Made by a program: the position numbers and the translations under genes. The notes beneath the pieces are model-generated. The model was not told where the DNA came from, made no database searches, and was given only the letters and a program-made list of their open reading frames with translations. Shown piece by piece: positions 147 through 28,930 of a stretch of DNA of 39,125 nt; position 1 is the first letter of the stretch, and the number at the start of each line of letters is the position of its first letter. Origin of the DNA: Candidatus Woesearchaeota archaeon (GTDB lineage: Archaea > Nanobdellota > Nanobdellia > Woesearchaeales > UBA11576); contig JAFGJH010000016.1 in NCBI GenBank assembly GCA_016929255.1, forward strand, positions 1-39,125, in the 5' to 3' direction.

Positions 147-2495
147 ATGGCAGATAAGATACTCATAACCAGCGCATTGCCTTACGTGAATAACGTGCCT
201 CATCTGGGCAACATCATAGGCTGTGTCCTTAGCGCGGATGTCTTTGCCAGGTTCTCCAGGGCGAGGGGGAATGAGACGCTCTTCATCTGCGGGACTGATG
301 AGCATGGCACGGCAACTGAGACCAAGGCTTTGGAGGAGGGCCTGACCCCTAAGCAGATCTGCGATAAGTATTACAAGATACACAGGGAGATATACGAGTG
401 GTTCGGCTGCTCTTTTGACGCTTTCGGACGCACCTCCACTGATACCCATACTGAAGTTACTCAATCCATATTCAGGCGCATACATGAGAATGGCTTCATA
501 ACAAAGGGTGAGCTTGAGCAGACCTACTGCCCCAAGTGCGACAAGTTCCTCGCAGACAGGTTCGTGGAGGGCACCTGCCCGCACTGCGGGTACGAGAACG
601 CGCGCGGCGACCAGTGCGAGAGCTGCGGCAGGCTGCTCAATCCTGTCGAGCTCCTTAACTCAAGGTGCAAGGTTTGCGGCTCCAAGCCGGTGGTGAGGAA
701 GTCAGACCATCTTTTCCTTGACCTGCCGAAGATAGGGCCTGAGCTTGAGAAGTGGTCTGTGCAGCAGTCCGGCAGTGGTTTCTGGACGCAGAACGCGGTC
801 ACTGTGACCAATGCCTGGTTCAGGGAGGGGCTGAAGGAGAGGTGCATCAGCAGGGACCTCAAGTGGGGCGTCCCTATCCCGCTCGAAGGATACACTGGCA
901 AGGTGTTCTATGTCTGGTTCGACGCGCCTATCGGCTACATAAGCATCACAAAGCACGCGTTCCCGGATGCATGGGAGTCCTGGTGGCATGGCGGCGGCGT
1001 GAAGCTCTACCAGTTCATGGCCAAGGACAACATCCCTTTCCACACGATAATATTTCCCGCGTCACTTATCGCGACCAGGGACGCGTGGACCATGCTGCAT
1101 CACATCGACTCCACAGAGTATCTCAATTATGAGGGCGGGAAGTTCTCCAAGAGCGCGGGCACAGGCGTGTTCGGCGACGATGCAAAGGGCACAGGCATAC
1201 CTGCGGATGTCTGGCGCTACTACCTGCTGAGCAGCAGGCCTGAGGGCGCTGATTCCTTTTTCAGCTGGAAGGAGTTCCAGGACAAGAACAACAATGAGCT
1301 GCTCGCGAACCTGGGCAACTTCGTGAACCGCACACTCACATTCACGCAGAAGTATTTCGGGGGCAGGGTGCCTGAGAAGGAGCTGGAAGGCAAGGATGAC
1401 AGGCTCATCCAGGATGTCAGTTCGCAGATAGCGAAGGTGATAGAGCTCCTCGAGAATGTCAGGGAGCGTGATGCGCTGAAGGAAGTGATGCAGATATCCC
1501 GTCTCGGCAACCAGTACTTCCAGGAGAACGCGCCCTGGAACCTTGTCAGGCCGGCGGCATCGAAAAGTGCGGTGCCGCCTTCTGGCGTAGCGCAGAGCGG
1601 CAAGGTCTGCGGTCCTGACAGGGGGAAGTCCCTTACGGGGATGTCAGGTCTTGGCGATAGCGGTCAGGGCGCGGAGCTTGGCGGCACCCGGCAGGATGCC
1701 GAGCTTTTCGATGACGCAAACATGAAGAGATGCGCCACAGTGCTCAATGTCTGCTGCAACCTTGTGCGGACCCTTGCTGTCATGATAGAGCCTTTCCTGC
1801 CCCACACTTCAGGGGATATATTCGCGCAGCTGGCTCTCGACGGAAAGGGGCCGAGGCTGGAGTACAAGATGCATCTCGACCTCGAGCCAGGCCACGCTAT
1901 TGCGGAGCCGAAGGTGCTTTTCCGCAAGCTCGAGGACAGGGAGATTGATGATTTCAGGAGGCGCTTCGGCGGCAGGAAGAAGGAGGCGAAGAAGGAGGCT
2001 CCCGTCGAGAAGCTTGAGGAGTTCCCTGCTGACCTGAGGGTCGCGAAGGTGCTTTCAGTGGATGACCATCCTGACGCGGGCAAACTCTATGTCCTGAAGA
2101 TAGACCTCGGAACTGAGCAGAGGCAGCTCGTCGCCGGTCTGAAGGCTTACATCCCGAGGGAGAACCTGCTCGGGAAGCATATCATAGTCGTGTGCAATCT
2201 CAGGCCTGCGAAGCTGCGAGGCATAGAGAGCAGGGGCATGCTGCTGGCTGCCGACGACGGCAAGAAGGTCGTGCTGCTCGAGGCCCCTGATTCCGATCCC
2301 GGCGACGAAGTGACGCTCAAGGGCGTGCCGAACACGGAGCCTTTCAGGGAGCTCAGTGTCGACGAGTTCTTCAGGCTGGGCCTTGTCGTCGATGATGCGG
2401 GCCATGTTGTCTGCGAGAACTTCAGGAAGGAGCTGAAGACGCCTGTGGAGTTCGTGGTGGCGAAAGGCATCGGCGCTGGTGCCAAGGTCAGGTGA
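147..2495 (+). CDS. metG: methionyl-tRNA synthetase with in-frame palindromic insertion
   Basis: Class I synthetase that charges initiator and elongator tRNA-Met in the cytoplasm. Visible signatures are the HIGH-type motif HLGN (residues 19-22), a long Cys-knuckle zinc region with four CxxC pairs (about 130-180), and the KMSKS-type motif KFSKS (332-336). The C-terminal OB-fold of the EMAPII/Trbp111 type starts near residue 628 (RVAKV, then LVAGLKAYI and NLRPAKLRGIESRGM). The start is set by the HLGN distance and the TATA box 27 bases upstream. Length (782 aa) is above that of a usual two-domain MetRS. Part of the excess is about 52 residues (about 471-522, Ser/Gly-rich) between ENAPWNLVR and the helix with CATVLNVC, where homologs have a short loop. 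This stretch is encoded by a palindromic repeat (see 1558-1713). Identity is very sure. Confidence 0.97.
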   Translation: MADKILITSALPYVNNVPHLGNIIGCVLSADVFARFSRARGNETLFICGTDEHGTATETKALEEGLTPKQICDKYYKIHREIYEWFGCSFDAFGRTSTDTHTEVTQSIFRRIHENGFITKGELEQTYCPKCDKFLADRFVEGTCPHCGYENARGDQCESCGRLLNPVELLNSRCKVCGSKPVVRKSDHLFLDLPKIGPELEKWSVQQSGSGFWTQNAVTVTNAWFREGLKERCISRDLKWGVPIPLEGYTGKVFYVWFDAPIGYISITKHAFPDAWESWWHGGGVKLYQFMAKDNIPFHTIIFPASLIATRDAWTMLHHIDSTEYLNYEGGKFSKSAGTGVFGDDAKGTGIPADVWRYYLLSSRPEGADSFFSWKEFQDKNNNELLANLGNFVNRTLTFTQKYFGGRVPEKELEGKDDRLIQDVSSQIAKVIELLENVRERDALKEVMQISRLGNQYFQENAPWNLVRPAASKSAVPPSGVAQSGKVCGPDRGKSLTGMSGLGDSGQGAELGGTRQDAELFDDANMKRCATVLNVCCNLVRTLAVMIEPFLPHTSGDIFAQLALDGKGPRLEYKMHLDLEPGHAIAEPKVLFRKLEDREIDDFRRRFGGRKKEAKKEAPVEKLEEFPADLRVAKVLSVDDHPDAGKLYVLKIDLGTEQRQLVAGLKAYIPRENLLGKHIIVVCNLRPAKLRGIESRGMLLAADDGKKVVLLEAPDSDPGDEVTLKGVPNTEPFRELSVDEFFRLGLVVDDAGHVVCENFRKELKTPVEFVVAKGIGAGAKVR
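1558..1713 (+). repeat. palindromic element inserted in frame within metG (copy E1)
   Basis: A 156-bp nested palindrome, exactly 52 codons long. Its outer arms are CATCGAAAAG (1558-1567) and CTTTTCGATG (1704-1713). Its middle arms are GGTGCCGCC (1571-1579) and GGCGGCACC (1680-1688). Its core stem is CCTGACA (1614-1620) and TGTCAGG (1642-1648). All three are perfect inverted repeats. The encoded peptide is low in complexity and lies at a surface loop position. The arms resemble those of the intergenic copy at 28669-28775, and the core resembles copy E0 at the left edge. Confidence 0.75.
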
Positions 2496-13495: not shown

Positions 13496-15571
13496 ATGGT
13501 TGATGTTTTCATCGGAAGGAAAGCGCAGATCACCGTCTTCATAATCATAGGCATAATAATACTGTTCTCTGTGGGCATATTCAGCTACATGAAGTATTCA
13601 GGGGTGAGCCCTGTCAGCATCCTTCAGCCCAAGGCACCTCCTGTGGTGGAGTTTGTTGACGCGTGCATTGAGCGCACTGCTGTGGAGGCGATAAAGGCGA
13701 TGGGTGACCAGGGCGGCTACATTGTCATCCCGCCGGGCATCGCTTACAACCCTACAAGGCATGTCTCTCTTGTGCCTGGTGTGGGCGGTGAGTTCGCGCC
13801 GAAGGTGCCTTACTGGTATTTTGACGGGAAGACAGAGATTCCGAGCCTCAGGTACATGGAGGTTGAGGTCGAGCATTACATCGACACGAACCTGAAGTAC
13901 TGCCTGGACAGCTTCAGCGCGATGCGCGACGAGTATATCATAACCGAGCTGAGCAACTACTCGTCCAGCGTTGTCTTCACAGACAGGGAGACCATCATCG
14001 GCCTCGACTATGTGATTGACATCCAGCCGAGGGGCAAGGACGAGACGACAAGGCGCGAGCAGTTCGTCGTGAAGCTTGACGTCCCTCTCAAGAGGATGTG
14101 GGAGCTGGCAAAGGAGATTCTCGAGGCTGAGAACCGCATGACGTTCTACGAGAACATGACGCTCAACATCATGGCTTCGCACCCGTCTGAGGACATCCCT
14201 TTCACGGGCATGGAGTTCCATTGCGGCAGGCTGCAGTGGCTCCTGTCCAACATCAAGAAGAAGGTCATCTACGCGGTCGAGCCTGCTGTCTCTGCAGTGA
14301 GGTTCAAGAACACTGACCATCCGCCGTTCATGGCAAAGGATGATGCTTACCGTGCGGTGCACAACGCAGTCGCTGGCTGGAAGGAGAGTGAGGTGTACAA
14401 GCCCCTTGTGCTGCCGAAGAACATCCCTGAGGACTCCTATGATTACTTCCAGTACTACTTCCAGTTCACTGAGAATGACAGGGACTACAGGGCGTTCAAG
14501 GTTGTCTCGTCCTTCAAGGAGGACTGGGGCATGAACCTGCTCGCGACGCCCAACCAGTACGGCGTCCTCAAGTCAGGCGTGCAGGACCTGAAGTCCCAGA
14601 TCATGGGCTTCCTGTGCCTGAACACATATCATTTCGTGTATGACCTGACTTATCCTGTGATGGTCAGCATAAACGACCCGAACGCCCTGCACAGGACTGG
14701 CTATGTGTTCAGGTTCGCGTTCCCCGTGCAGATATTCCACAACAACCCTGACCGCTCTCTGCTTCCGACGAGGATAATCGAGCCGACAGAGTTCGCCCTC
14801 AACTACTGCGACTACTACGCGCCGGAGGACCACACGATAATAGCGAGGGATGTGGTGACGAATGCCGAGCTGTCGAAGGTGAACCTTACGTTCAGGTGCC
14901 TGAGGGAGCAGTGCATCCTGGGCACCACGAGGAGCGACAACCGGCATCTGCAGTGGAGCGGGAAGTTCCCTGACGGGTGCGCGGGGGCGCTGATAGAGGC
15001 ATACATGTCAGGCTACGTGCTGGCTGAGAAGCAGTATGACGGCACCGAGCCTTTCTACATTGACATGTACCCGACGCAGCCTGTCGTGTTCGACGTGAAA
15101 AGGCATCCTGAGAATTCGCCTGACACGTCGAAGTTCCTTGCGCCTGACATGTATGCCATACTCCAGCTGGACCTGAGGGAGCCGCGCATACCTGGTTCCC
15201 TGACTGTATTTGATGTCTTCGGCCAGCAGGACATCTTCAACAGGACAGACACGTTCGAGCTGCTGCGCGCCGACGCTGTCTATGATATCAATCTCATGCT
15301 TATGCAGAAGATCAGCAAGGACGAGGACCGCATGATAGGCGGCTGGATAGGCAACTGGACAGTGAAGCTCGGTGAGATACTTGACGCGAAGAAGGTCGTT
15401 TTCCACATCCCGCAGAAGGTCCCGACCCCGAGGACTGATGAGGAGGTCATCGCTGTGTATGAGCTCATGACCAACAGGTCATTGTTCCCTGACATAAAGC
15501 CGGAGATAATAAGGGCTGATGAGTATGCAGGGGAGCAGGACGCGGCGGGTACAGAGGAGGTGGCCGGATAG
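13496..15571 (+). CDS. single-anchor surface protein with KAQITVF pilin-like start, 691 aa
   Basis: Paralog of the 745-aa protein at 5363. It starts with GRKAQITVFIIIGI and one membrane helix (about 8-32), with Phe again at the place of the pilin Glu. The body is outside the cell and carries many potential N-glycosylation sites. Shared blocks are VPYW near residue 103, a YIDTNLKYCLDSF block near 123, a short D/E-R/K-E block leading into LDY, and the PVMV...GYVFRFA block near 385-405. The C-terminal third diverges from the paralog. GAGGT at 13486-13490 lies five bases before ATG at 13496, so the start is well supported. The next gene begins one base after the stop. Confidence 0.86.
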   Translation: MVDVFIGRKAQITVFIIIGIIILFSVGIFSYMKYSGVSPVSILQPKAPPVVEFVDACIERTAVEAIKAMGDQGGYIVIPPGIAYNPTRHVSLVPGVGGEFAPKVPYWYFDGKTEIPSLRYMEVEVEHYIDTNLKYCLDSFSAMRDEYIITELSNYSSSVVFTDRETIIGLDYVIDIQPRGKDETTRREQFVVKLDVPLKRMWELAKEILEAENRMTFYENMTLNIMASHPSEDIPFTGMEFHCGRLQWLLSNIKKKVIYAVEPAVSAVRFKNTDHPPFMAKDDAYRAVHNAVAGWKESEVYKPLVLPKNIPEDSYDYFQYYFQFTENDRDYRAFKVVSSFKEDWGMNLLATPNQYGVLKSGVQDLKSQIMGFLCLNTYHFVYDLTYPVMVSINDPNALHRTGYVFRFAFPVQIFHNNPDRSLLPTRIIEPTEFALNYCDYYAPEDHTIIARDVVTNAELSKVNLTFRCLREQCILGTTRSDNRHLQWSGKFPDGCAGALIEAYMSGYVLAEKQYDGTEPFYIDMYPTQPVVFDVKRHPENSPDTSKFLAPDMYAILQLDLREPRIPGSLTVFDVFGQQDIFNRTDTFELLRADAVYDINLMLMQKISKDEDRMIGGWIGNWTVKLGEILDAKKVVFHIPQKVPTPRTDEEVIAVYELMTNRSLFPDIKPEIIRADEYAGEQDAAGTEEVAG

Positions 15572-15572
15572 C

Positions 15573-18500
15573 ATGGCGGGCAGGGCAATTGACCAGCATG
15601 TTTGCAGGGTTGCGCTTTTCATAGCGTGGCTCATGGTTCTGACTCCTGTCTATTCTGCGAGCGCCCTCCAGCTGACTTTCAATCCTGATTCAGACGTGAC
15701 TGTGGATGACATATCCGCGGTCATCAATTTCACTACTGACGAGCCCGCCACGGCGCGGGTCAGGTACGGCCTTGAGGGCCGCATCACCGAGTCTGCTGAG
15801 AGCAAGCCTGCGAAGACAGGGCACTCTGTCCTGATCAGGGGGATAGCGTCCAGCACAAGGTTCCAGTATTATATAGAGGCGAGCAACGCCAGCGCGACTG
15901 TGAGGAGCCCGCTTGACGGCGGCGACTTCCATTACTTCACCACTGAGGCTCCGAGGGACAGGTCCCCTCCGAATGCGGTGAGGGGCCTGGCTGCTCCGAC
16001 GATAACAAGGGACAGCATCTCGCTTGTGTGGGAAAGCAGCCCTGCTGACACGGACATTGACGGCTACTATGTGTTCAGGAACGGCACTCTTGTGGGTGAC
16101 CTTGTCAGGGAAAAGTCTTTCACTGACTCAGGCCTGTATTATGAGACTGAGTATGAGTACAAGGTGGGTGCGGTCGACCTTGCGGGCAACAGGGGCGTGA
16201 ACACCAGCGTGAAGGCGACCACCAGGGCAGAGTCTTATACTGCCATAGCGATATCAAGTTTCACTGCCGAGGCCACGGGCACGAGCGTCTATGCCACCTG
16301 GACCACGAACATGGAGGGCCACACCAGGCTGAAGTACAGCCAGAACCCGCTCCTGCTCGACCAGAAGAAGGAAGATCCTGAGATGGTCATGCAGCACAAC
16401 ATGACGCTTCCGGACATGCCTGCCAACTCAAACATCACTGTCATGGCGGAGTCCTGCACTGCCGAGGGCGCGTGCGCGAACTCAACCCCTGTAACGGTCC
16501 ACACGACCCAGAAGATCGAGCTCGCCCTCTCGGTCGACGGCATGGACTGCGACCCGGGCACAATCACTTATGCCAACACCAACAGGCTGACTGTGAAGGG
16601 CACCGCCTCTCCCGGCGCTGACCTGGAGGTGTACGTCAACGGGAAGAAGGAGAGGTTCAAGCGCATCACGTCGACAGGTGACTTCAATTTCGCAGGCATG
16701 GACCTTGACGCGAACAGGGCGCAGAACGACATAAGGGTGTTCGCGTCCGACCATTCTTCTCCTGACAAGGAGTGCCTTGACACTGTGATGCTCGACTACA
16801 TGGCGCCTGAGGTGCATTTCAACAACCAGACCGCCAATCTCACTTTCGCCACGCAGTCCAGCGTGCAGCTGGGCGGCAACCTGACTGACGAGCACAAGGT
16901 CACGCTGTACATCTCTGTGCAGGGCGTCGACGACACAGTCGCGCCTCCTGCCCCGCAGAACATCTCTGACAAGGCTGTCGCTGCGAATTCGGTGACGATA
17001 AGGTGGGACTCGCTTCCGGGAGAGGTGACTGACGCCTACAAGCTGTTCATTTACAGGTCTGACGTGCCCGGCGGCCCGATTGCTTTCACAGAGCCTTCTG
17101 TCACAGAGTATGTCGACAGCAATGTCAGCACTGCCACGACTTACACTTATCAGGTCAGTGTCATCGACCGTGCGGGCAATGAGGGTGCGAGGTCTTCCCC
17201 GTTCTCTGTCACTACGCTGCCGAACGGCACTGTAGCGGCTCCGATAAGCCATATAGTCCCGCCCAGCCCCGGCCTCCTGCTGACCAAGGATTACAGTCCC
17301 AACAACCAGTCTGTGCAGTTCACCGAGACGGTCACGAACCTGTTCGACGGCAAGAACATAATAACGCTCAAGTTCGTCGATGAGGCGGGCAACATGGCTG
17401 AGGAGAAGCTTGAGGTGACCTATGAGAAGGAGCCTCCGCGCATAATCACCCCCACCGCAGCAGAGATACAGTCCCAGTACTCCCCGACCTACATGAGCGA
17501 GCTCGTGATAAGGGGGCAGGTGAACAAGCCTGTCGGCGAGGTCTGGGTGTGGGTGAACCCGAGGACAGCATCATTCACGATCAGTGCTGACGGCAGCATG
17601 ACTATGGCGTCCTTTGAGGCGGCTTATCCTGAGGAGCCCGTGACCAAGGTGGAGCTTCAGGAGAACGGGACTTTTGAGGCTGATGTCGCGCTCGCCACCT
17701 CTATCGGCGCTGCGATTTCAGGCACATTCACGGGAAGTGTCGACAGCGGGACAGTCTCAGGCACCGGCACGACTTCAGCTTCTGGTGTCAGCACCGCGGG
17801 TACGGGCGGAGCCGGAGGCCAGAACACGATAGTCATGGTCGCTTTTGACCAGTACGGCAGGCCTTCCCAGCCCGTGCAGGGGACCGTGCTTTATACCCCC
17901 TGCGGCGAGAATTATTACTGGACTGTCAAGCTCAATGAGGGCGGCAATGTCCTGAACACGAGGGAGCTTCTTGAGGGCCTGGCAGCTTATGGCTTCGGCT
18001 ATGAGCTTGAGTGGATAGGCGGCGGTGACGCCACCAAGGCCAAGGCGCAGAACGTGGTTGTGAGGAAGGCGACTGTCGGCGCGAAAGAGCGTGAGAAGTA
18101 TGACTTTGACTGGCTCTCTGCCGAGCCGAGGGTGCTGACGCAGAGGGGCAACGCGACAAAGGGATTCATCATGATCAATTTCGCCCCGCAGAACCCTCCG
18201 GGCGAGACTTATCTTGAGAGGGAGCAGAACCTGAGCGGGCACAGGCGCGGCGAGTGCTGGCCTCTGGCCGGCTGCATACACCTGCTACTCGAGATGGAGA
18301 TAACCTCTGATTCCGCGCCTCTTACGGGCATGTACAACGCTTCGGCCGGAAACCCTATGCCTGTCGGCATGCAGGCGATACAGCCGCAGAAGCAGTGCAT
18401 CGACATCAAGATAATGCTCGACGAGAGGATTGACTTCGCGAGCAGCGACTTCGTCAAGGGCCTGCTCGAGGCTTCGCTCGTGGCCATAAACGCCACGATA

Positions 18501-21500
18501 AATTTCATAGAGATGATAGAGAAGCCGATAAAGTATGCCACGCAGATCACTTTGGGCATCTGCCTCCTGACCTACATCTCTAAGTTCATCGTGGACGCGA
18601 TGAAGAGCTATTACTGCAAGTGGAACAGCGCGCTCAAGGAGCTGAGCAAGGGCGGTATCAGGGGCATCGCCGGTTCTGCCGCCGAGATTGCGCAGGGCAA
18701 GATAGAGAAGGTCGCCGGCATGCACAATGAGATAGAGGGGGATGGGGCATGCAATGTCGAGTTCCCGCCGAATGTTGACGACACAAAGGAGGCCAATGAA
18801 GCCTGCAAGCAGTGCGCTGATTGGATTGGCAAGGCGCAGTGGGTGACTGACAAGTGGCACCTGTTCTGTGACAGGGTGATGTGCCCGTCTGTCCCTTCAC
18901 TGCAGCACTATATCAATACTCACTATACTGCGGGAAGGAGGAGCCTGTGGAGGCCTGGCGGTGATTCTGCCGCTGCACAGGCCACAGGCACGTGCACTCC
19001 TTTCAGCGATAGTGCCGCGGTCGACAACAGGAAGATAACCTCGCCGTGCAGCTGCGGGACCGGCACTTGTCAGGCCTCTGCAGGCGAGGCTGCCAGGGTG
19101 TGCAGGGGCAATGCCTGCGTCGACGTGACCCAGACCTGCAGGCCTTATTCTGCTTCATCTACTGCAGTGCTTGCCGCCGCAGACCTTGACAGCAACGGCC
19201 TTTGCAGGTGCGGAGACCTTGTCTGCATAGCAGGCCAGACCTGCGACATGACTGCGGGAAGGTGCGCAGGGCATACTGCGACGGCAGCGCCTGCTGAGGC
19301 TGCTGCTCCAATGCCTGCTGGTGCGCATCCCTGCGATGACAACCGTGTTGGCTGGAGCTGCCAGGACAAGTCGGATGCTTGCCCTACAGGGACTGCTGCT
19401 GTCTGTGCTACAACCCAAGGTTGTGTGCAGAATCAATGCCGAGCAGACGCCGCAAAAGTACTCTGCTGCCCGAACCCGTCTCCTGCAACACCTATTACGG
19501 GAGGTCCGACTCCTCCAGGGACTTCACCGCCGCTGATAATACAGGACATCAATGCCGAGTCCTTATCCCTGCCAACTCCTTCAGGCAGCGCTCCTCAGGT
19601 TCCTTTGATTACAGGGTTCACGGCTGGTGGCACGTCTGCCGGCAGTGCATCTTCACCGGCTCCTGCTGCAGCTTCTTCTGCTGACGGCTCCCGTGCCGGC
19701 GCTCCCAGGAATCCTGTGTATAATGATATTGCCGAAAAGTATACTGTTCAAAACACCTGGAAGCGCACTGACCTGAAGAACGCGAAGTCTGACTGCGAGT
19801 TCGCTGAGATGGGCCGCGGCCCTATCAGCGAGATGTTCAAGTTCTACGATGAAAACAAGGAGACTGACCTTGGCAGGATCTGCGAGGCAGGCCACATCCC
19901 GCAGGCTGCCTGCTGCCCGTTCGAGTACATGCAGGAGTGGGGATGGGGCATGTTCTGGTCCAATGAGGTGAAGATGTCCTACTGCCTTGCCGAGCCCGGA
20001 GCTGAGGAGTGCGGCATGGGCGAGACCATCCAGCGCGGCGTCACCGGCATCTGCCAGCCGAGCGGCAATGCTCCGCGCGCAGTGCCTGTGATACTTGACA
20101 GGCTGAAGTGGAGGTCTGATTATCCTTCTTCAAGCCTTAATATGGTCAATGATAATGTTGTCTACCTGGTTGATATCGACGAGAGCGGCAGCGCCAGGAG
20201 CGTCAGGCGAGGGTATTTCTCCAAGAGCGAGGTCGCCGAGGTGACCGGTGTGGTTGAGGCCTCGGGCAGGGTGGAGATATCGACCGGCAGCTATTTTGTG
20301 CCTGAGAATGAGTTTGATTCTGAAGACATGTCTACCTGGTTCCCTGAAAGGGACAACGCTGACCTGAGCAGGGATTCTGACGCGTTTCAGGAAGGTCTTA
20401 CCGCCTTCAAAACAAACCTCAGGCAGAGCATAGAGCGCGGTGAGATACAGCCGAGAAGCACGGGTTTTGTCATAAACGATGCTGCTTATGAGGAATGGTA
20501 CCGCCAGATATACGGCCTGCTCGGCGACCCCGGAAGGCAGTATCTTGCTCAGCCTGCGGGCAGCTTCATACAGTCGATACTCACTCTCTGCCTTTCAGGC
20601 ATACTTTCATGGATCGTGCAGTTCAAGCACATGCTTCAGCTGCTGCAGCAGTGTTTCCAGACCATTCTTGTCACCGGCGACGGCAGCTCTGGCCAGTGCC
20701 AGGCGCTGATAAGCCAGTACATCTGTGACTTGATAAAGGAGGCGATAAGCTGCCTTGTGAACAGGCTTGGCGGCGGCGCCAGCGCAAGGACCGGAATGGG
20801 CGGCATCAGCGGCATATTCGCGTCTATATCTGATGCTTCGAGGGGCATAACTGCTGAGGCGCAGTCAAGGTATGGCGACAGGAACCTGTTCGGCACTACC
20901 TTTGCTGCAGAGAATGTCCTGCATGACGCGTGCATATTCATGTTCACGGGCGAGTGGCCGACTGACTGGATGCAGGTGTTCGAGACCGCGGCCTACCTGC
21001 CGATAAACAGCACTGTGTTTGTCTTCCCTGTGACCAGGCGGTGGCAGGCTTATGATCCTGCGACAGGATACTCAAGGTATGTCTACAGGGTGGCGTATTC
21101 GTTCTTTGCCGGCGCGAACGTCCATTATGATGTTAAGCTGCACTGCTCCGGCCCGAATGAGATGTGCACCACTATCGACGGCGGCACAGAGCCCTGCGAC
21201 TGCAGCCATGATGATACAGGGCTCGCAAGGTATATTACTCAGGGAAGGCAGGTCGACATGCCGATACTGAGGCACCAGAGCGGCAACTGTCCTGAGAGCG
21301 GCGACATGACGCAGGGCCAGTTCTGCTCCGACGAGATACTGTTTGTCGGCGAGGGATTCCAGCCGCTGAGGTATGACAAGGTGGTCATAGATTACAGGCC
21401 CACCCAGCAGATGGGTGTGGGCAGCGCCGGCGGGATGTCCGCGACAGGCGGCTTCGGCGGCACTATCGCGTCGCCTCAGGCGGTGACCGGGAGGGGTGAA

Positions 21501-24500
21501 GGAACTATCCGCGAGATCGGCGGCCCTCCGCCTGGCCTGTGCAGGTTTGACATCGGCCAGCTTGCGTTCAGGTGCGGCATCGAGATCCCGCCTCTGGGCT
21601 ATGCCAGGTTCATCAGCGAGCCTCTGCTTGTCAAGGAGGCGAACCAGCCTTACACTATAGGTGACAACCTGATTGTGAGGGCGCAGATCCAGCAGGAGCT
21701 TCCTGCTGATGCGTCTTCATGCTCCGGCGACTGCCAGTTCACGAAGTACTTTGTGATAAAGGAGATTCTTAACCAGCAGAACGCACGCATCTACCCCCGG
21801 TCGAACAAGGAGGTGGTCGGTGAGCGCCTCAATGAGAACAGGGTGTATGACTTCACTATCTTCGACGAGAGGCAGTTCCCGCAGCACGTGAGGGAGAACG
21901 GCGAGGCGTTCCGGATAAAGGAGGAGCATTTCAGCATGAGGTCTTCCGGCACTGAGCGCATAACCGCGAAGCAGCCTTTCACAGGCCGCTGGACTTCTGG
22001 TTTCGTCAGGACGCCGATAATCGGTGAAGGGGTGGAGCCTCCGTACGCCATCAACTTCAGCTATCATGGAGGGGCTTTCTATTTCACTGTCCTCAATACA
22101 GAGGTGAACCTTGCTACCGGCGGAACAAGGACTGCTTTCACTCCTGCGGGGGCTGAGCAGCGCTGCGAGGTCCAGCCTGCGGTCATCGACCTGAATTCAG
22201 GGACCAATCCTGAGCTCGTTTGCGGCGGCATGAGGTTCAGCCTCAACCTGATGTCGATTGCCAACACTGTCAGGCGTGTCTCTGCAGGCACTGCGGGCTC
22301 TGCTCCGTCGTCAACAGCCATGCCTGAGGGGTCGCTGGTCATACACTGGGAGCAGCAGACCGGCGGTTCTACGACCGCGACCTGCACAGATGCTGAGCAG
22401 ACCTGGAAGATGACGCTTGAGATACGCGGCGCTGACTCTGTGGGCGGCGGCGGCTACCAGATGGGTACAGGCCCGATAAGCGACTATGAGACCAATGTCG
22501 AGCAGAAGAAGACTGTTGAGTTCAAGGTTGTATGCCGCGGTGGCCAGACAGGCCCTGCTGCGGGCTCGCTTTCTGACCTTGCGCGCATGTCTGCTGTCGT
22601 GAGGGCGGAGAACACCGCAGCCAACAAGACTTTCGGCCTTTGGGTTGATGACGCGACGCCTCTCGGACCGACAGAGGAGATCCGCGTGGGTGATTTCGTG
22701 TGGGTGGAGCCGGGGCCTCCGCCTGTCAGGCAGTCGGGCTTCAGGGTGAACATCGACTCCACTGCGCAGTTTGCGATACTGAACATGGATGTCGGCAGGA
22801 TGGATCTGATACCTGGCGATGACCTGAACATCTACAAGGCGGGGCAGCTGCTGATGCGCTGCGGGGAGGCGCCGTGCATAGAGAGCACAGGCGATTCGAA
22901 CAACCGCGTGATAAGGATAAGGCTGAGCGCCGGCGACCCGATATTTGAGTTCACAGGATTCAGGGCTGCTGCAGGCATTGAAGGGCTGCCTGCTGGGGGG
23001 GTTGTGCTGAGCAGGACAAACCCAGCCTATCCTTCAGCCACAGAGCCTTCGATAATGCTTCGTGAGCCGATACCTTCAGATGTGCGTGTCACTCTCAGCA
23101 GCTTCAGGCAGAATGATGATGGCTTCTCTATAATGTGCAACACTACCCCTGCGACCATGATTGACCCTGTGACTGTCGGCTTTGACTTCGACAGGATAGG
23201 GTATTCAGCGGCAGGGACTGTCTCTGTGGAAGGCATGACGCCGTGCAGCGGGACTGCGGGTGGTGCTGCTGTGCCTGCTGGTGGGGGTTCTCATGATTGT
23301 TTTGATAGTGCTGGTGTTGGGCGTGTCTGTTATTGTGGACCTGGTACTGGTGAAGGTGCTCTTCTGTGCGCGCCTAATCAGGTATGTCATGAGTGTGTTT
23401 CTGGCGAGTCTGGCTGTCATAGTAACAACTTCAAATGTGTTTCAGCAGGCGATGCCGGCGGTGCCGCAGTCACCGACATCCACTCTGAATCCTCTTCCCT
23501 CCCTGTTCCTTCAGCTCCTGCTCAGGGTGCCCCCCTGATCACCGGGTTTGCTACAGGGGAACAGCCGGGTGCGCCTCCGTCTCATGCAGGCACCAACACT
23601 TTGAGCGGTAACAGTGTGTCTGGCGGTTCTGGCCCTGCTTATGGTTTCTTTTCAGGCGGCGATACTGTATGGGTTGACCAGTCAGGCGCTACCCTGTCAG
23701 GCAATGTGGTTGTTAGAATCACTTGGGCAAGCAGCGCAGCGTCTCTTGTAGGGCATTTTGCTGCTTTGCGCAACGGCTACAGTTGCGGGACAGATACTAC
23801 TCAGGCTGCTGCTGAGGCCAAGTTTACAGGCTGTACTGCGGGGCCTTCTGCTTCAACATCAGGTGGCGGTGCTGCTTCATCTTCAGGCTCCGGTGGCGGT
23901 TCTCCGGGTGCAAGCGTCGCTGGTTCCATTCCTGCGGGCTCGCAGGACTGCTACGTGGTTGAGGGGAATTTGGTTTTTGTGAAGAGCCGTGGTGCTACTG
24001 GTAGGACAATAAGGGTCACAGGTCTGGTTGCGAAGGCTGCCACTGCCATCGCCAAGCTTTCTGACGCTGTGGGAAGGACTGTGGTTCTCACTTCACCCAG
24101 GCCTGAGCAGTACGGCGTGCGCGCTTCAGGGCTCTCGGGCGAGGGCCAGGTCATGATGAGGGACATCAGGATGGGCAGCGACAGCATCAGCATGAATGTA
24201 ACTGTCACGCAGGAAGGTGGGGCTGAGCTGTCGATTGAGCTGCTTCCGATGAGATTGAAAGCTGAGGCAGGGACCATGGTCGAGGCTGCGGGTGCAGGCG
24301 CGCTCATGGACTGCAGTGCTGGCCCGACCACTCCGCCGGGCTGTGTTGTCGCTCGCCAGACAGACAGGATAGTGTTCAGGCTGGACAGGCTGGCATCTCC
24401 TCTTGCGCTCAGGATTAGCGGGCTGGGCTCGACAACTAATGAGTGCGCCGATAAGCTGGCTGGTGAGTCCTGCTCCAAGGGCACGTGCTGGGAGCCGAAC

Positions 24501-25616
24501 ATACCTGGAATGAGCAAGGAATGCTACAGCCAGTGCAGGCAGCAGTATGTCAATGAACACCGTGATGCTATAATATCCAACCCGAGCAGCCTGCCTGGTG
24601 AGGGCAGCTTCTGCATACCTTCAAACGGCGCTTGCAATGTCCCAAAGACACCAGGGCTTTGTGCTGATTCGACGAGGATGTGCTGTTCTGATGGTAGTGG
24701 AGGTCCTCCTGTTTACCACGGATCTGCGCCTGCTGCGCCTGCTGCTGCTGCTGCTCCGCTTGCAAGCGGGACTTGTGAATACAGGGATTTTTTTGACCCT
24801 GATGCTGTTCTGATAGGCACTTGCAGGTATAACTGTCCTTTAGGAGGTATAGTCCCTTATGACCAGAAAATAAGGGATTGTGAGAGTGACGGTTACTGCT
24901 GCAGTGCGCCTTCAACTTGCACCGGCACTATTAGAGGCGGTACTTCTGTGATTTCGGGTGTGTGTGTGGATGAGTGTCCTTCTTATTTTATGGAGCTGGA
25001 AGAAAGTGATACTAGCACGTTCTGTAGACTGTTTGAGGGGGCTAAATGTTGCGGTGCTACTATAGCTGCAGGCTGCCCTATGGCTCCTATGGGTCCATTC
25101 CAGGTTTGTCCTCCGGGGTGCGATACTCAATGCGGTTTTCAATGTCAGGGTGACCTTAAGGAGTTGGTGTTGATTGATGGCAAGATGACTTGTGTTTATT
25201 ACTGCCAGTTTAATGCGCAGGCTGCACAGTCTAATTTGCCTTGCCTTTGCGGAAGCACTAAGATAACGACTGCGGGCGACTGGTGCTGCCAGGGGCTGAC
25301 GAGCGGAGCTTCCAATTACAGGATGTCCGCTGGTGATGCGGGGCACATAAGGAATAATTTGGGCACTTCTACCACTCCATGCGGAACCTGCGTTTATGCT
25401 GCAAGCCATGCTTGTTCACATTCGGCAGTGAATCCTGACGAGGATAAGTGCGGGTGTTATTTTGCCATGGCTGGAAATATATTTGAGGAGGAGTTGCTTT
25501 GCAGGAGTAACCCATGCGGTTTTAGGGAATGCCTGCAGTCGCACACGTTTACCTGCCCTGCATCATCTCCAAGCTGTACTCAGGGCGATTTCAGGTATTG
25601 CGTGAATAAGGCTTAA
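15573..25616 (+). CDS. giant Cys-rich surface protein with FnIII and Ig-like domains, about 3347 aa
   Basis: I choose ATG at 15573, one base after the previous stop, with GGAGGTGG at 15555-15562. It gives a proper signal peptide (core VALFIAWLMVLTPVYS), whereas ATG at 15519 adds a basic stretch before it. Order: FnIII-like domains (about 30-550, with DxxGNRG and DRAGNEG turns), Ig-like domains (to about 800), and a helical, partly hydrophobic part with LFCDRVMC (about 960-1110). Then come a Cys-rich part (1135-1310), a Ser/Pro/Gly linker with LITGF, a large mixed middle (1380-2560), a second Cys and linker part with LITGF (2570-2660), and a Cys-rich tail (2950-3347) with at least three CC motifs. 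No final membrane anchor is visible; inner hydrophobic segments or partners must hold it. It is likely a surface adhesin or scaffold, which is inference. Confidence 0.88.
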   Translation: MAGRAIDQHVCRVALFIAWLMVLTPVYSASALQLTFNPDSDVTVDDISAVINFTTDEPATARVRYGLEGRITESAESKPAKTGHSVLIRGIASSTRFQYYIEASNASATVRSPLDGGDFHYFTTEAPRDRSPPNAVRGLAAPTITRDSISLVWESSPADTDIDGYYVFRNGTLVGDLVREKSFTDSGLYYETEYEYKVGAVDLAGNRGVNTSVKATTRAESYTAIAISSFTAEATGTSVYATWTTNMEGHTRLKYSQNPLLLDQKKEDPEMVMQHNMTLPDMPANSNITVMAESCTAEGACANSTPVTVHTTQKIELALSVDGMDCDPGTITYANTNRLTVKGTASPGADLEVYVNGKKERFKRITSTGDFNFAGMDLDANRAQNDIRVFASDHSSPDKECLDTVMLDYMAPEVHFNNQTANLTFATQSSVQLGGNLTDEHKVTLYISVQGVDDTVAPPAPQNISDKAVAANSVTIRWDSLPGEVTDAYKLFIYRSDVPGGPIAFTEPSVTEYVDSNVSTATTYTYQVSVIDRAGNEGARSSPFSVTTLPNGTVAAPISHIVPPSPGLLLTKDYSPNNQSVQFTETVTNLFDGKNIITLKFVDEAGNMAEEKLEVTYEKEPPRIITPTAAEIQSQYSPTYMSELVIRGQVNKPVGEVWVWVNPRTASFTISADGSMTMASFEAAYPEEPVTKVELQENGTFEADVALATSIGAAISGTFTGSVDSGTVSGTGTTSASGVSTAGTGGAGGQNTIVMVAFDQYGRPSQPVQGTVLYTPCGENYYWTVKLNEGGNVLNTRELLEGLAAYGFGYELEWIGGGDATKAKAQNVVVRKATVGAKEREKYDFDWLSAEPRVLTQRGNATKGFIMINFAPQNPPGETYLEREQNLSGHRRGECWPLAGCIHLLLEMEITSDSAPLTGMYNASAGNPMPVGMQAIQPQKQCIDIKIMLDERIDFASSDFVKGLLEASLVAINATINFIEMIEKPIKYATQITLGICLLTYISKFIVDAMKSYYCKWNSALKELSKGGIRGIAGSAAEIAQGKIEKVAGMHNEIEGDGACNVEFPPNVDDTKEANEACKQCADWIGKAQWVTDKWHLFCDRVMCPSVPSLQHYINTHYTAGRRSLWRPGGDSAAAQATGTCTPFSDSAAVDNRKITSPCSCGTGTCQASAGEAARVCRGNACVDVTQTCRPYSASSTAVLAAADLDSNGLCRCGDLVCIAGQTCDMTAGRCAGHTATAAPAEAAAPMPAGAHPCDDNRVGWSCQDKSDACPTGTAAVCATTQGCVQNQCRADAAKVLCCPNPSPATPITGGPTPPGTSPPLIIQDINAESLSLPTPSGSAPQVPLITGFTAGGTSAGSASSPAPAAASSADGSRAGAPRNPVYNDIAEKYTVQNTWKRTDLKNAKSDCEFAEMGRGPISEMFKFYDENKETDLGRICEAGHIPQAACCPFEYMQEWGWGMFWSNEVKMSYCLAEPGAEECGMGETIQRGVTGICQPSGNAPRAVPVILDRLKWRSDYPSSSLNMVNDNVVYLVDIDESGSARSVRRGYFSKSEVAEVTGVVEASGRVEISTGSYFVPENEFDSEDMSTWFPERDNADLSRDSDAFQEGLTAFKTNLRQSIERGEIQPRSTGFVINDAAYEEWYRQIYGLLGDPGRQYLAQPAGSFIQSILTLCLSGILSWIVQFKHMLQLLQQCFQTILVTGDGSSGQCQALISQYICDLIKEAISCLVNRLGGGASARTGMGGISGIFASISDASRGITAEAQSRYGDRNLFGTTFAAENVLHDACIFMFTGEWPTDWMQVFETAAYLPINSTVFVFPVTRRWQAYDPATGYSRYVYRVAYSFFAGANVHYDVKLHCSGPNEMCTTIDGGTEPCDCSHDDTGLARYITQGRQVDMPILRHQSGNCPESGDMTQGQFCSDEILFVGEGFQPLRYDKVVIDYRPTQQMGVGSAGGMSATGGFGGTIASPQAVTGRGEGTIREIGGPPPGLCRFDIGQLAFRCGIEIPPLGYARFISEPLLVKEANQPYTIGDNLIVRAQIQQELPADASSCSGDCQFTKYFVIKEILNQQNARIYPRSNKEVVGERLNENRVYDFTIFDERQFPQHVRENGEAFRIKEEHFSMRSSGTERITAKQPFTGRWTSGFVRTPIIGEGVEPPYAINFSYHGGAFYFTVLNTEVNLATGGTRTAFTPAGAEQRCEVQPAVIDLNSGTNPELVCGGMRFSLNLMSIANTVRRVSAGTAGSAPSSTAMPEGSLVIHWEQQTGGSTTATCTDAEQTWKMTLEIRGADSVGGGGYQMGTGPISDYETNVEQKKTVEFKVVCRGGQTGPAAGSLSDLARMSAVVRAENTAANKTFGLWVDDATPLGPTEEIRVGDFVWVEPGPPPVRQSGFRVNIDSTAQFAILNMDVGRMDLIPGDDLNIYKAGQLLMRCGEAPCIESTGDSNNRVIRIRLSAGDPIFEFTGFRAAAGIEGLPAGGVVLSRTNPAYPSATEPSIMLREPIPSDVRVTLSSFRQNDDGFSIMCNTTPATMIDPVTVGFDFDRIGYSAAGTVSVEGMTPCSGTAGGAAVPAGGGSHDCFDSAGVGRVCYCGPGTGEGALLCAPNQVCHECVSGESGCHSNNFKCVSAGDAGGAAVTDIHSESSSLPVPSAPAQGAPLITGFATGEQPGAPPSHAGTNTLSGNSVSGGSGPAYGFFSGGDTVWVDQSGATLSGNVVVRITWASSAASLVGHFAALRNGYSCGTDTTQAAAEAKFTGCTAGPSASTSGGGAASSSGSGGGSPGASVAGSIPAGSQDCYVVEGNLVFVKSRGATGRTIRVTGLVAKAATAIAKLSDAVGRTVVLTSPRPEQYGVRASGLSGEGQVMMRDIRMGSDSISMNVTVTQEGGAELSIELLPMRLKAEAGTMVEAAGAGALMDCSAGPTTPPGCVVARQTDRIVFRLDRLASPLALRISGLGSTTNECADKLAGESCSKGTCWEPNIPGMSKECYSQCRQQYVNEHRDAIISNPSSLPGEGSFCIPSNGACNVPKTPGLCADSTRMCCSDGSGGPPVYHGSAPAAPAAAAAPLASGTCEYRDFFDPDAVLIGTCRYNCPLGGIVPYDQKIRDCESDGYCCSAPSTCTGTIRGGTSVISGVCVDECPSYFMELEESDTSTFCRLFEGAKCCGATIAAGCPMAPMGPFQVCPPGCDTQCGFQCQGDLKELVLIDGKMTCVYYCQFNAQAAQSNLPCLCGSTKITTAGDWCCQGLTSGASNYRMSAGDAGHIRNNLGTSTTPCGTCVYAASHACSHSAVNPDEDKCGCYFAMAGNIFEEELLCRSNPCGFRECLQSHTFTCPASSPSCTQGDFRYCVNKA

Positions 25617-27607: not shown

Positions 27608-27763
27608 GCTGCAGCCACGCTGCTACTGGTTAAGTAGGCTGCTAATCGCTGATTGCACCGACCGTGCTTGCCTGCGGCTTGCGCAATAAGTGCAGATTAC
27701 AGATTAAGTGCAGCCCCATCCGCTGCTCTCACTTGAGGACACGCAAAAAGCGGTGGCTGCAGC
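27608..27763 (-). repeat. palindromic element after the DUF58 gene (copy E4)
   Basis: The closing arms are GCTGCAGCCAC (27608-27618) and GTGGCTGCAGC (27753-27763), perfect over eleven pairs. On the minus strand it begins nine bases after the DUF58 stop codon. It aligns along its whole length with copy E5 after moxR; shared blocks include CACGCTGCTA, TTGCGCAATA, AAGTGCA and GAGGACACGCAA. A small inner stem pairs CCGCT with AGCGG near the right end. Confidence 0.75.
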
Positions 27764-28668: not shown

Positions 28669-28775
28669 GCGCCGCCAATGCCAGCCTGCGACGCCACGGA
28701 ATCATGTGCGGCTGAAAAACATCTTGGTGTAAGCAGCGGCCAGATAGTAACGCAGGAGCGCTGCTTTGGCGGCGC
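28669..28775 (-). repeat. palindromic element before the DUF58 gene (copy E6)
   Basis: Perfect ten-base closing arms, GCGCCGCCAA (28669-28678) and TTGGCGGCGC (28766-28775). The arm sequence is close to the middle arms of the insertion in metG (GTGCCGCC and TTGGCGGCAC). It ends 24 bases before the DUF58 start codon, so on a shared transcript it would lie in the leader of that gene. Confidence 0.65.
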
Positions 28776-28788
28776 GACCAAGACTGTC

Positions 28789-28930
28789 GCAGCGCCACGC
28801 TGCTATCCCGCAGCCGGTTGCTATCCGCTGATTCATCAGACTGTGCTTGCGCAATATCTGCTGTTTGTCGTCGAAGTGCAACCCCTTCCGCTTCTCTTGT
28901 CCGAGGACACGCAAGGAGCGGTGGCGCTGC
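28789..28930 (-). repeat. palindromic element after moxR (copy E5)
   Basis: Closing arms GCAGCGCCAC (28789-28798) and GTGGCGCTGC (28921-28930). On the minus strand it begins nine bases after the moxR stop. It is the best partner of copy E4. Compared with E4, both arms have changed in matched pairs, so the stem is kept while its sequence differs. Confidence 0.75.

Follow-up and report, generated by a model that had tools for sequence, protein, structure and literature searches.

Genomic setting of metG

The window (the whole stretch of DNA analysed here, 39,125 nucleotides) is contig 44 of a draft genome of a Candidatus Woesearchaeota archaeon (1.208 Mb in 60 contigs, estimated 93% complete; G000 hereafter). 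Since the SSU rRNA is missing from the draft, the archaeal host was settled with ribosomal protein L32e, which is present and which among the control genomes occurred in archaea only. The gene metG encodes the sole methionyl-tRNA synthetase (MetRS) found in this genome (Table 1); the next match was a distant class I synthetase (E 7e-10). This type of MetRS is common to spirochaetes, some other archaea and, in a PDB search, the human cytoplasmic enzyme, a distribution that, judged from sequence, suggests inter-domain transfer. The gene is under purifying selection: in comparison with the sister species G001, dN was 0.074, dS 0.65 and dN/dS 0.11, and the amino-acid changes, polarised with G005 (a genome of the same family but of another genus), numbered 22 on the G000 lineage and 21 on that of G001; these values and counts also cover the time before the insertion described below. 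Elsewhere in the window, a 3365-aa open frame with a fibronectin type III match (15519-25616) encodes a probable giant surface protein; a DUF58/VWA gene is flanked by 81-nt direct repeats that are 75% identical (27677-27757 and 28845-28925), and a palindrome at 28669-28775 lies near the second of these.

Table 1. Coordinates of metG, of the repeat copy that it contains, and of a second copy in the window.
Feature	Position	Strand	Remarks
Upstream of metG: second copy, incomplete at the contig end	1..75	-	R1 40.3 bits, model positions 1-74
metG, methionyl-tRNA synthetase, 782 aa	147..2495	+	Pfam tRNA-synt_1g (3e-156), tRNA_bind, Anticodon_3
Whole element copy in metG	1554..1717	+	164 bp, outer arm to outer arm; R1 match 1565-1693, 85.4 bits, E 6e-13 (partly by construction)
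Outer arm A, GCGGCATCGAAAAG	1554..1567	+	Other copies have similar terminal inverted repeats (GCGTTATTGAAAAG, GCTCTGTAGAAAAC)
Middle arm B, GGTGCCGCC	1571..1579	+	Perfect 9-bp arm; covaries in 65 sister-species copies
Unpaired motif 1, conserved; family form AATnTGCGnAGCG	1580..1592	+	Ten-copy alignment A1 and copy listing
Inner arm D, CCTGACA	1614..1620	+	Perfect 7-bp arm; covaries
Conserved loop, GGGGGAAGTCCCTTACGGGGA; family form GGGGGAYGYCCCYTACGGGGA	1621..1641	+	Copy comparison, alignment A1
Inner arm D', TGTCAGG	1642..1648	+	Pairs with D; covaries
Conserved motif 2; family form AGCGnAGCCT	1669..1679	+	Copy comparison, alignment A1
Middle arm B', GGCGGCACC	1680..1688	+	Pairs with B; covaries
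Small hairpin C (CGGCA-GGA-TGCCG), between B' and A'	1689..1701	+	Typical of most outer-arm copies
Outer arm A', CTTTTCGATGACGC	1704..1717	+	13/14 complementary to A

A palindromic insert in the metG reading frame

Three nested perfect inverted repeats were found within metG where the first-pass annotation had placed them: 10 bp within the outer arms (1558-1567/1704-1713), 9 bp in arms B and B', and 7 bp in arms D and D'. No dinucleotide shuffle out of 1000, and no other 191-base window of the contig out of 381, equalled their nested-arm length of 26 (maximum 22 in both cases), and single-strand folding gave z = -3.2. The observation of a palindromic insert in metG is confirmed; its dimensions had to be revised. 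The 156 bp, or exactly 52 codons, assigned to it earlier correspond only to the distance between the far ends of the perfect 10-bp arms; in full, the arms reach 1554 and 1717, with one mismatch in 14 bp, and the net gain relative to the metG of G001 is 50 codons (150 bp), a multiple of three. The reading frame passes through the inverted repeats without a stop, as a single intact frame of 782 codons.

A repeat family with a conserved fold

Visual inspection and pattern matching first revealed the family core in other copies. A strict core pattern search yielded one extra site only, and plain DNA similarity recovered other copies only as a core of 17-25 bp (GGGGGAYGTCCCTTACGGGG), so that a covariance model was needed; this model, R1, was built on the ten-copy alignment A1, which comprises nine copies elsewhere in the genome and the metG copy. 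R1 matched approximately 24 sites in G000 (1.2 Mb), 42 in the sister species G001, at least 88 in the sister species G003 and 41 in G007, and no copies in G002, G004, G005 and G006; copy number across the taxonomic family thus ranges from 0 to bursts of at least 88. The exact core pattern had no match in viral contigs. Copies share the order arm B, motif AATnTGCGnAGCG, arm D, core loop, D', motif AGCGnAGCCT, B', and the metG copy, unique in sequence among them, retains the full family fold (85 bits with R1, a score partly due to construction since this copy is among the ten in A1). The left-edge copy that had been suspected upstream of metG is a genuine member (Table 1); the palindrome at 28669-28775, credited at that time with similar arms, is not, reaching 3.3 bits with R1 when all filters were off.

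For 65 copies of G001 and G003 that had played no part in building the model, 93.5% of the cells in modelled pairs were standard pairs, against 63.6% in shuffles and 28-60% in slid controls, although the alignment leans toward the model to which it was fitted. Two-sided changes occurred in 15 of 15 modelled pairs, and the covariation score was 0.73 vs. 0.21; the unpaired loops are nearly fixed while the arms change sequence and keep their pairing. These features, together with the intact fold of the metG copy, would be expected if the element were a structured RNA or single-stranded DNA selected for a job of its own, as a processed RNA or as a processing or termination signal, with metG merely hosting one copy; this reading is compatible with mobility. 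Yet covariation alone is no proof of RNA function, since template switching can homogenise the arms of DNA palindromes and thereby mimic it; moreover, the element had no match in Rfam, and a copy number between 0 and at least 88 within one family fits a required RNA gene poorly. A selected function of this kind is possible but rather unlikely.

Several related palindromes were noted. Directly 3' of metG, a different palindrome (2508-2647) has similar end arms (GCAGTGCCGCCGCG / CGCGGCACTGC) and another interior, and scores 9.9 bits with R1; its partial copies in the genome, at least 15 and several of them at contig ends, mark it as a second high-copy repeat family. At the corresponding place after metG, the sister species G001 carries an intergenic R1-type copy whose core loop holds a nested insert (L212:9600-9790). 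Nested, hairpin-forming inserts of approximately 50 nt in the core loop GGGGGA..CCC were also seen at L286:2196-2375, L272:2106-2284, L260:2607-2781 and contig 37:20291-20468. Three copies without outer arms lie inside a second, larger palindrome with the same arm type (L276:2240-2450, L278:2520-2730 and L283:120-340) and look as if elements nest in one another.

Two end types and target duplications

Roughly one surveyed copy in two extends into further outer arms (GCTCTGTAGAAAAC, GCGTTATTGAAAAG and sequences like these; 15 bp is typical), and most of these copies also have a small hairpin with a GRA-type loop that separates B' from the outer arm. The outer-arm type includes the metG copy (GCGGCATCGAAAAG / CTTTTCGATGACGC, with hairpin C). 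Adjoining direct repeats of 8-10 bp, such as CTGCTTGTCT, GTGTGGTTG and CCCTATTTT, reached a score of 8 or more in 7 of 44 outer-arm copies, where re-pairing of left and right flanks predicts 0.13; target duplications were found at none of 42 copies without outer arms. With these 8-10 bp target-site duplications, outer-arm copies behave like MITEs. The metG copy has the corresponding build (164 bp, no transposase gene, 14-bp terminal arms of which 13 positions pair); target-site duplications characterise the outer-arm copies as a group, and none is visible at the metG copy itself. At contig 38:11240, an outer hairpin stands alone between CTTACCAAC repeats, as though the rest of the element had been deleted.

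The 60-contig draft of G000 yielded no Y1, IS4/IS5-type or IS6-type transposase; the IS481-like gene of G003 has ends that differ from those of the element. When G000 was scanned for genes flanked by pairs of inverted repeats, only noise came back, and the stretches examined contained no long copy in which two halves of the element enclose a gene. Palindromic elements derived from IS200/IS605 (PATE or REP) have a Y1 (HUH) transposase as partner and make no target duplication; an origin of this kind is not supported, given that the G000 draft yielded no Y1 transposase and that outer-arm copies have target duplications.

An empty site in related genomes

The MetRS of G001, approximately 90% identical to that of G000 before the site, reads NLVK-QDAGEEG-MRR where G000 has NLVR-[...]-QDA-ELFDDAN-MKR, and G005 reads LIRE-ESGSEG-KTR without an insert; the empty site is therefore known from two relatives. 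The approximately 50 residues are likewise missing from every aligned MetRS homolog of related and distant genomes, the outcome anticipated for an insertion when the palindrome was first noticed. With this empty site, the genome-wide family and the open frame, the proposal that a palindromic repeat has entered metG in frame is supported.

At the junction, 11 bases of hairpin C (GCAGGATGCCG, encoding Gln-Asp-Ala) are identical to the uninterrupted gene of G001; unless this match is a coincidence, the insertion was no simple addition. The same 11 bases, and a loop in G001 that is 4-5 residues longer than in more distant homologs, could also be taken to mean that the insert is ancestral and that the sister species lost it, leaving the short footprint QDAGEEG. 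However, G005, of another genus and free of the element by R1, has a loop of the same length (EESGSEG), so that the longer loop itself looks ancestral, and the G000 copy is intact and undecayed; loss from the sister species is very improbable.

Probable read-through and its predicted consequences for the protein

Alternatively, the insert could be an archaeal intron, excised by the splicing endonuclease at a bulge-helix-bulge and absent from the protein, an option that the first-pass annotation had already placed second. Archaeal pre-mRNA introns exist (cbf5; PMC2738675), and the palindromic arms would bring the two junctions together; yet a scan for the hBHBh' motif at the two junctions (5' sites 1525-1600 by 3' sites 1660-1740; 3-nt bulges, 4-bp central helix, flanks of at least 3 bp) found no match, the net gain is a multiple of three with the frame open, and the same element sits intergenically elsewhere, which leaves splicing with a slim chance. 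That a repeat copy was stitched into metG during assembly, as might happen in a draft metagenome assembly with repeats of this family at contig ends, is scarcely credible for a copy of unique sequence that has the same gene on both flanks and leaves the frame intact over 782 codons; a random join would rarely be in frame and stop-free, the metG frame being open in 25 of 72 copies.

The other five frames are open in 8-23 of these copies. With the metG frame open at this rate, an open insertion in frame needs no special design. Stop-free frames through other copies were considered as real genes and discarded, as by eye they were GC-rich chance frames without conserved proteins. A copy was counted as lying in a gene when its open frame led into recognisable protein at both ends; by this test, all 88 other copies surveyed in three genomes lie outside conserved genes, and the family is accordingly no specialist for coding genes. 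The search for the element in further coding genes, advocated when the insert was first noted, thus ended with metG as the only case among 89 surveyed copies, and coding insertion is known for this one copy only.

An AlphaFold2 model of the MetRS (26 aligned sequences, mean pLDDT 86.5) places residues 471-520 below 50; this segment coincides exactly with the insert and is flanked by helices 470-475 and 523-547 of the anticodon-binding domain. The insert is thus predicted to form a disordered loop linking two anticodon-domain helices. In human cytoplasmic MetRS (5gl7), which by sequence is the nearest solved structure, no more than a short connection spans the position of the insert; together with the modelled disorder between helices, this makes an added loop at this site plausible.

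Proposed origin of the insert

The insert is very probably a MITE-like, non-autonomous mobile hairpin element that entered metG after the split from the sister species and is now read through as a tolerated loop of about 50 residues. Under this scenario, the short hairpin-forming element would have been moved by an outside transposase, possibly of the DDE type with a staggered cut of about 9 bp; the transposon supplying this enzyme would be expected to have ends GGCTCTGTAGAAAAC or GGCNTTATTGAAAAG and to generate a 9-bp target duplication. The element would have landed in the loop-coding part of metG, and would be read through because by chance it has no stop in the metG frame and does not shift that frame. 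The mRNA would presumably remain unspliced, so that the approximately 50 extra residues would be present in the protein as a disordered loop in the anticodon-binding domain, which the enzyme would tolerate.

A further and more tentative idea, for which we would claim little confidence, concerns the family as a whole: one folded core, whose unpaired loops are fixed while its arms change freely, may move with two end types, one producing target duplications of about 9 bp and the other none. The folded RNA or single-stranded DNA would then be the selected unit, recognised by an outside factor, and one copy of it would now be translated in an essential tRNA synthetase.

Comparison with known repeat elements

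Rickettsia palindromic elements (RPEs) are palindromes of 105-150 bp with terminal inverted repeats that occur in frame in conserved housekeeping genes, including those for enzymes, where they are tolerated (PMC10969869, PMC2229807). The metG copy, a palindromic in-frame insert of about 50 codons in a conserved gene, resembles them in these respects. In contrast, RPEs enter genes recurrently, whereas here 1 of 89 surveyed copies lies in a gene; and each RPE has an open frame with a conserved peptide (PMC10969869), whereas the six frames of the archaeal family are open in 8-25 of 72 copies and none is kept. The likeness to RPEs drawn in the first-pass annotation therefore remains an apt analogy for the metG locus, but membership fails, with no other copy in a conserved gene and no frame kept; the earlier interpretation is partly supported. 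Its further statement that no archaeal case had been described does not hold, since palindromic repeats of Methanocaldococcus jannaschii have been reported as fused into protein genes (Suyama, Lathe and Bork, 2005, as cited in PMC2229807). As described in that citation, these repeats are likewise archaeal, palindromic and repetitive, with some copies fused into protein genes; they belong to another archaeal group, and the likeness is drawn from this cited description.

Bacterial MITEs that form hairpins, namely ERIC (RU-1), YPAL (RU-2) and NEMIS/Correia elements, measure approximately 100-170 bp and are mostly intergenic, with occasional in-frame fusions (PMC2759123, PMC2229807); the present family shares the length range, the hairpin form and the mostly intergenic location with an occasional in-frame fusion, but it is archaeal, and has widely varying arms with kept pairing and loops, and two end types on one core. 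In Haloquadratum, MITEs with target duplications occur beside short mobile repeats (SMRs) of approximately 110 bp that have inverted ends and no target duplication, some of them nested in palindromes (PMC3119063). The outer-arm copies described here share inverted ends and target duplications with the former; the copies without outer arms, which lack target duplications and in some cases are nested in palindromes, resemble the latter. Unlike in Haloquadratum, both end types carry the same structured core, and a partner transposon is not known. After M. jannaschii, this woesearchaeon represents a second archaeal lineage whose palindromic repeats can enter proteins. The protein affected here is essential, and a sister species offers a clean empty site. 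The case also brings to light a large family, so far uncatalogued, that covaries exceptionally in structure, has no counterpart in Rfam and shows a burst of copies within one species; compared with known systems, it is unusual in that two end types share one strongly covarying core.
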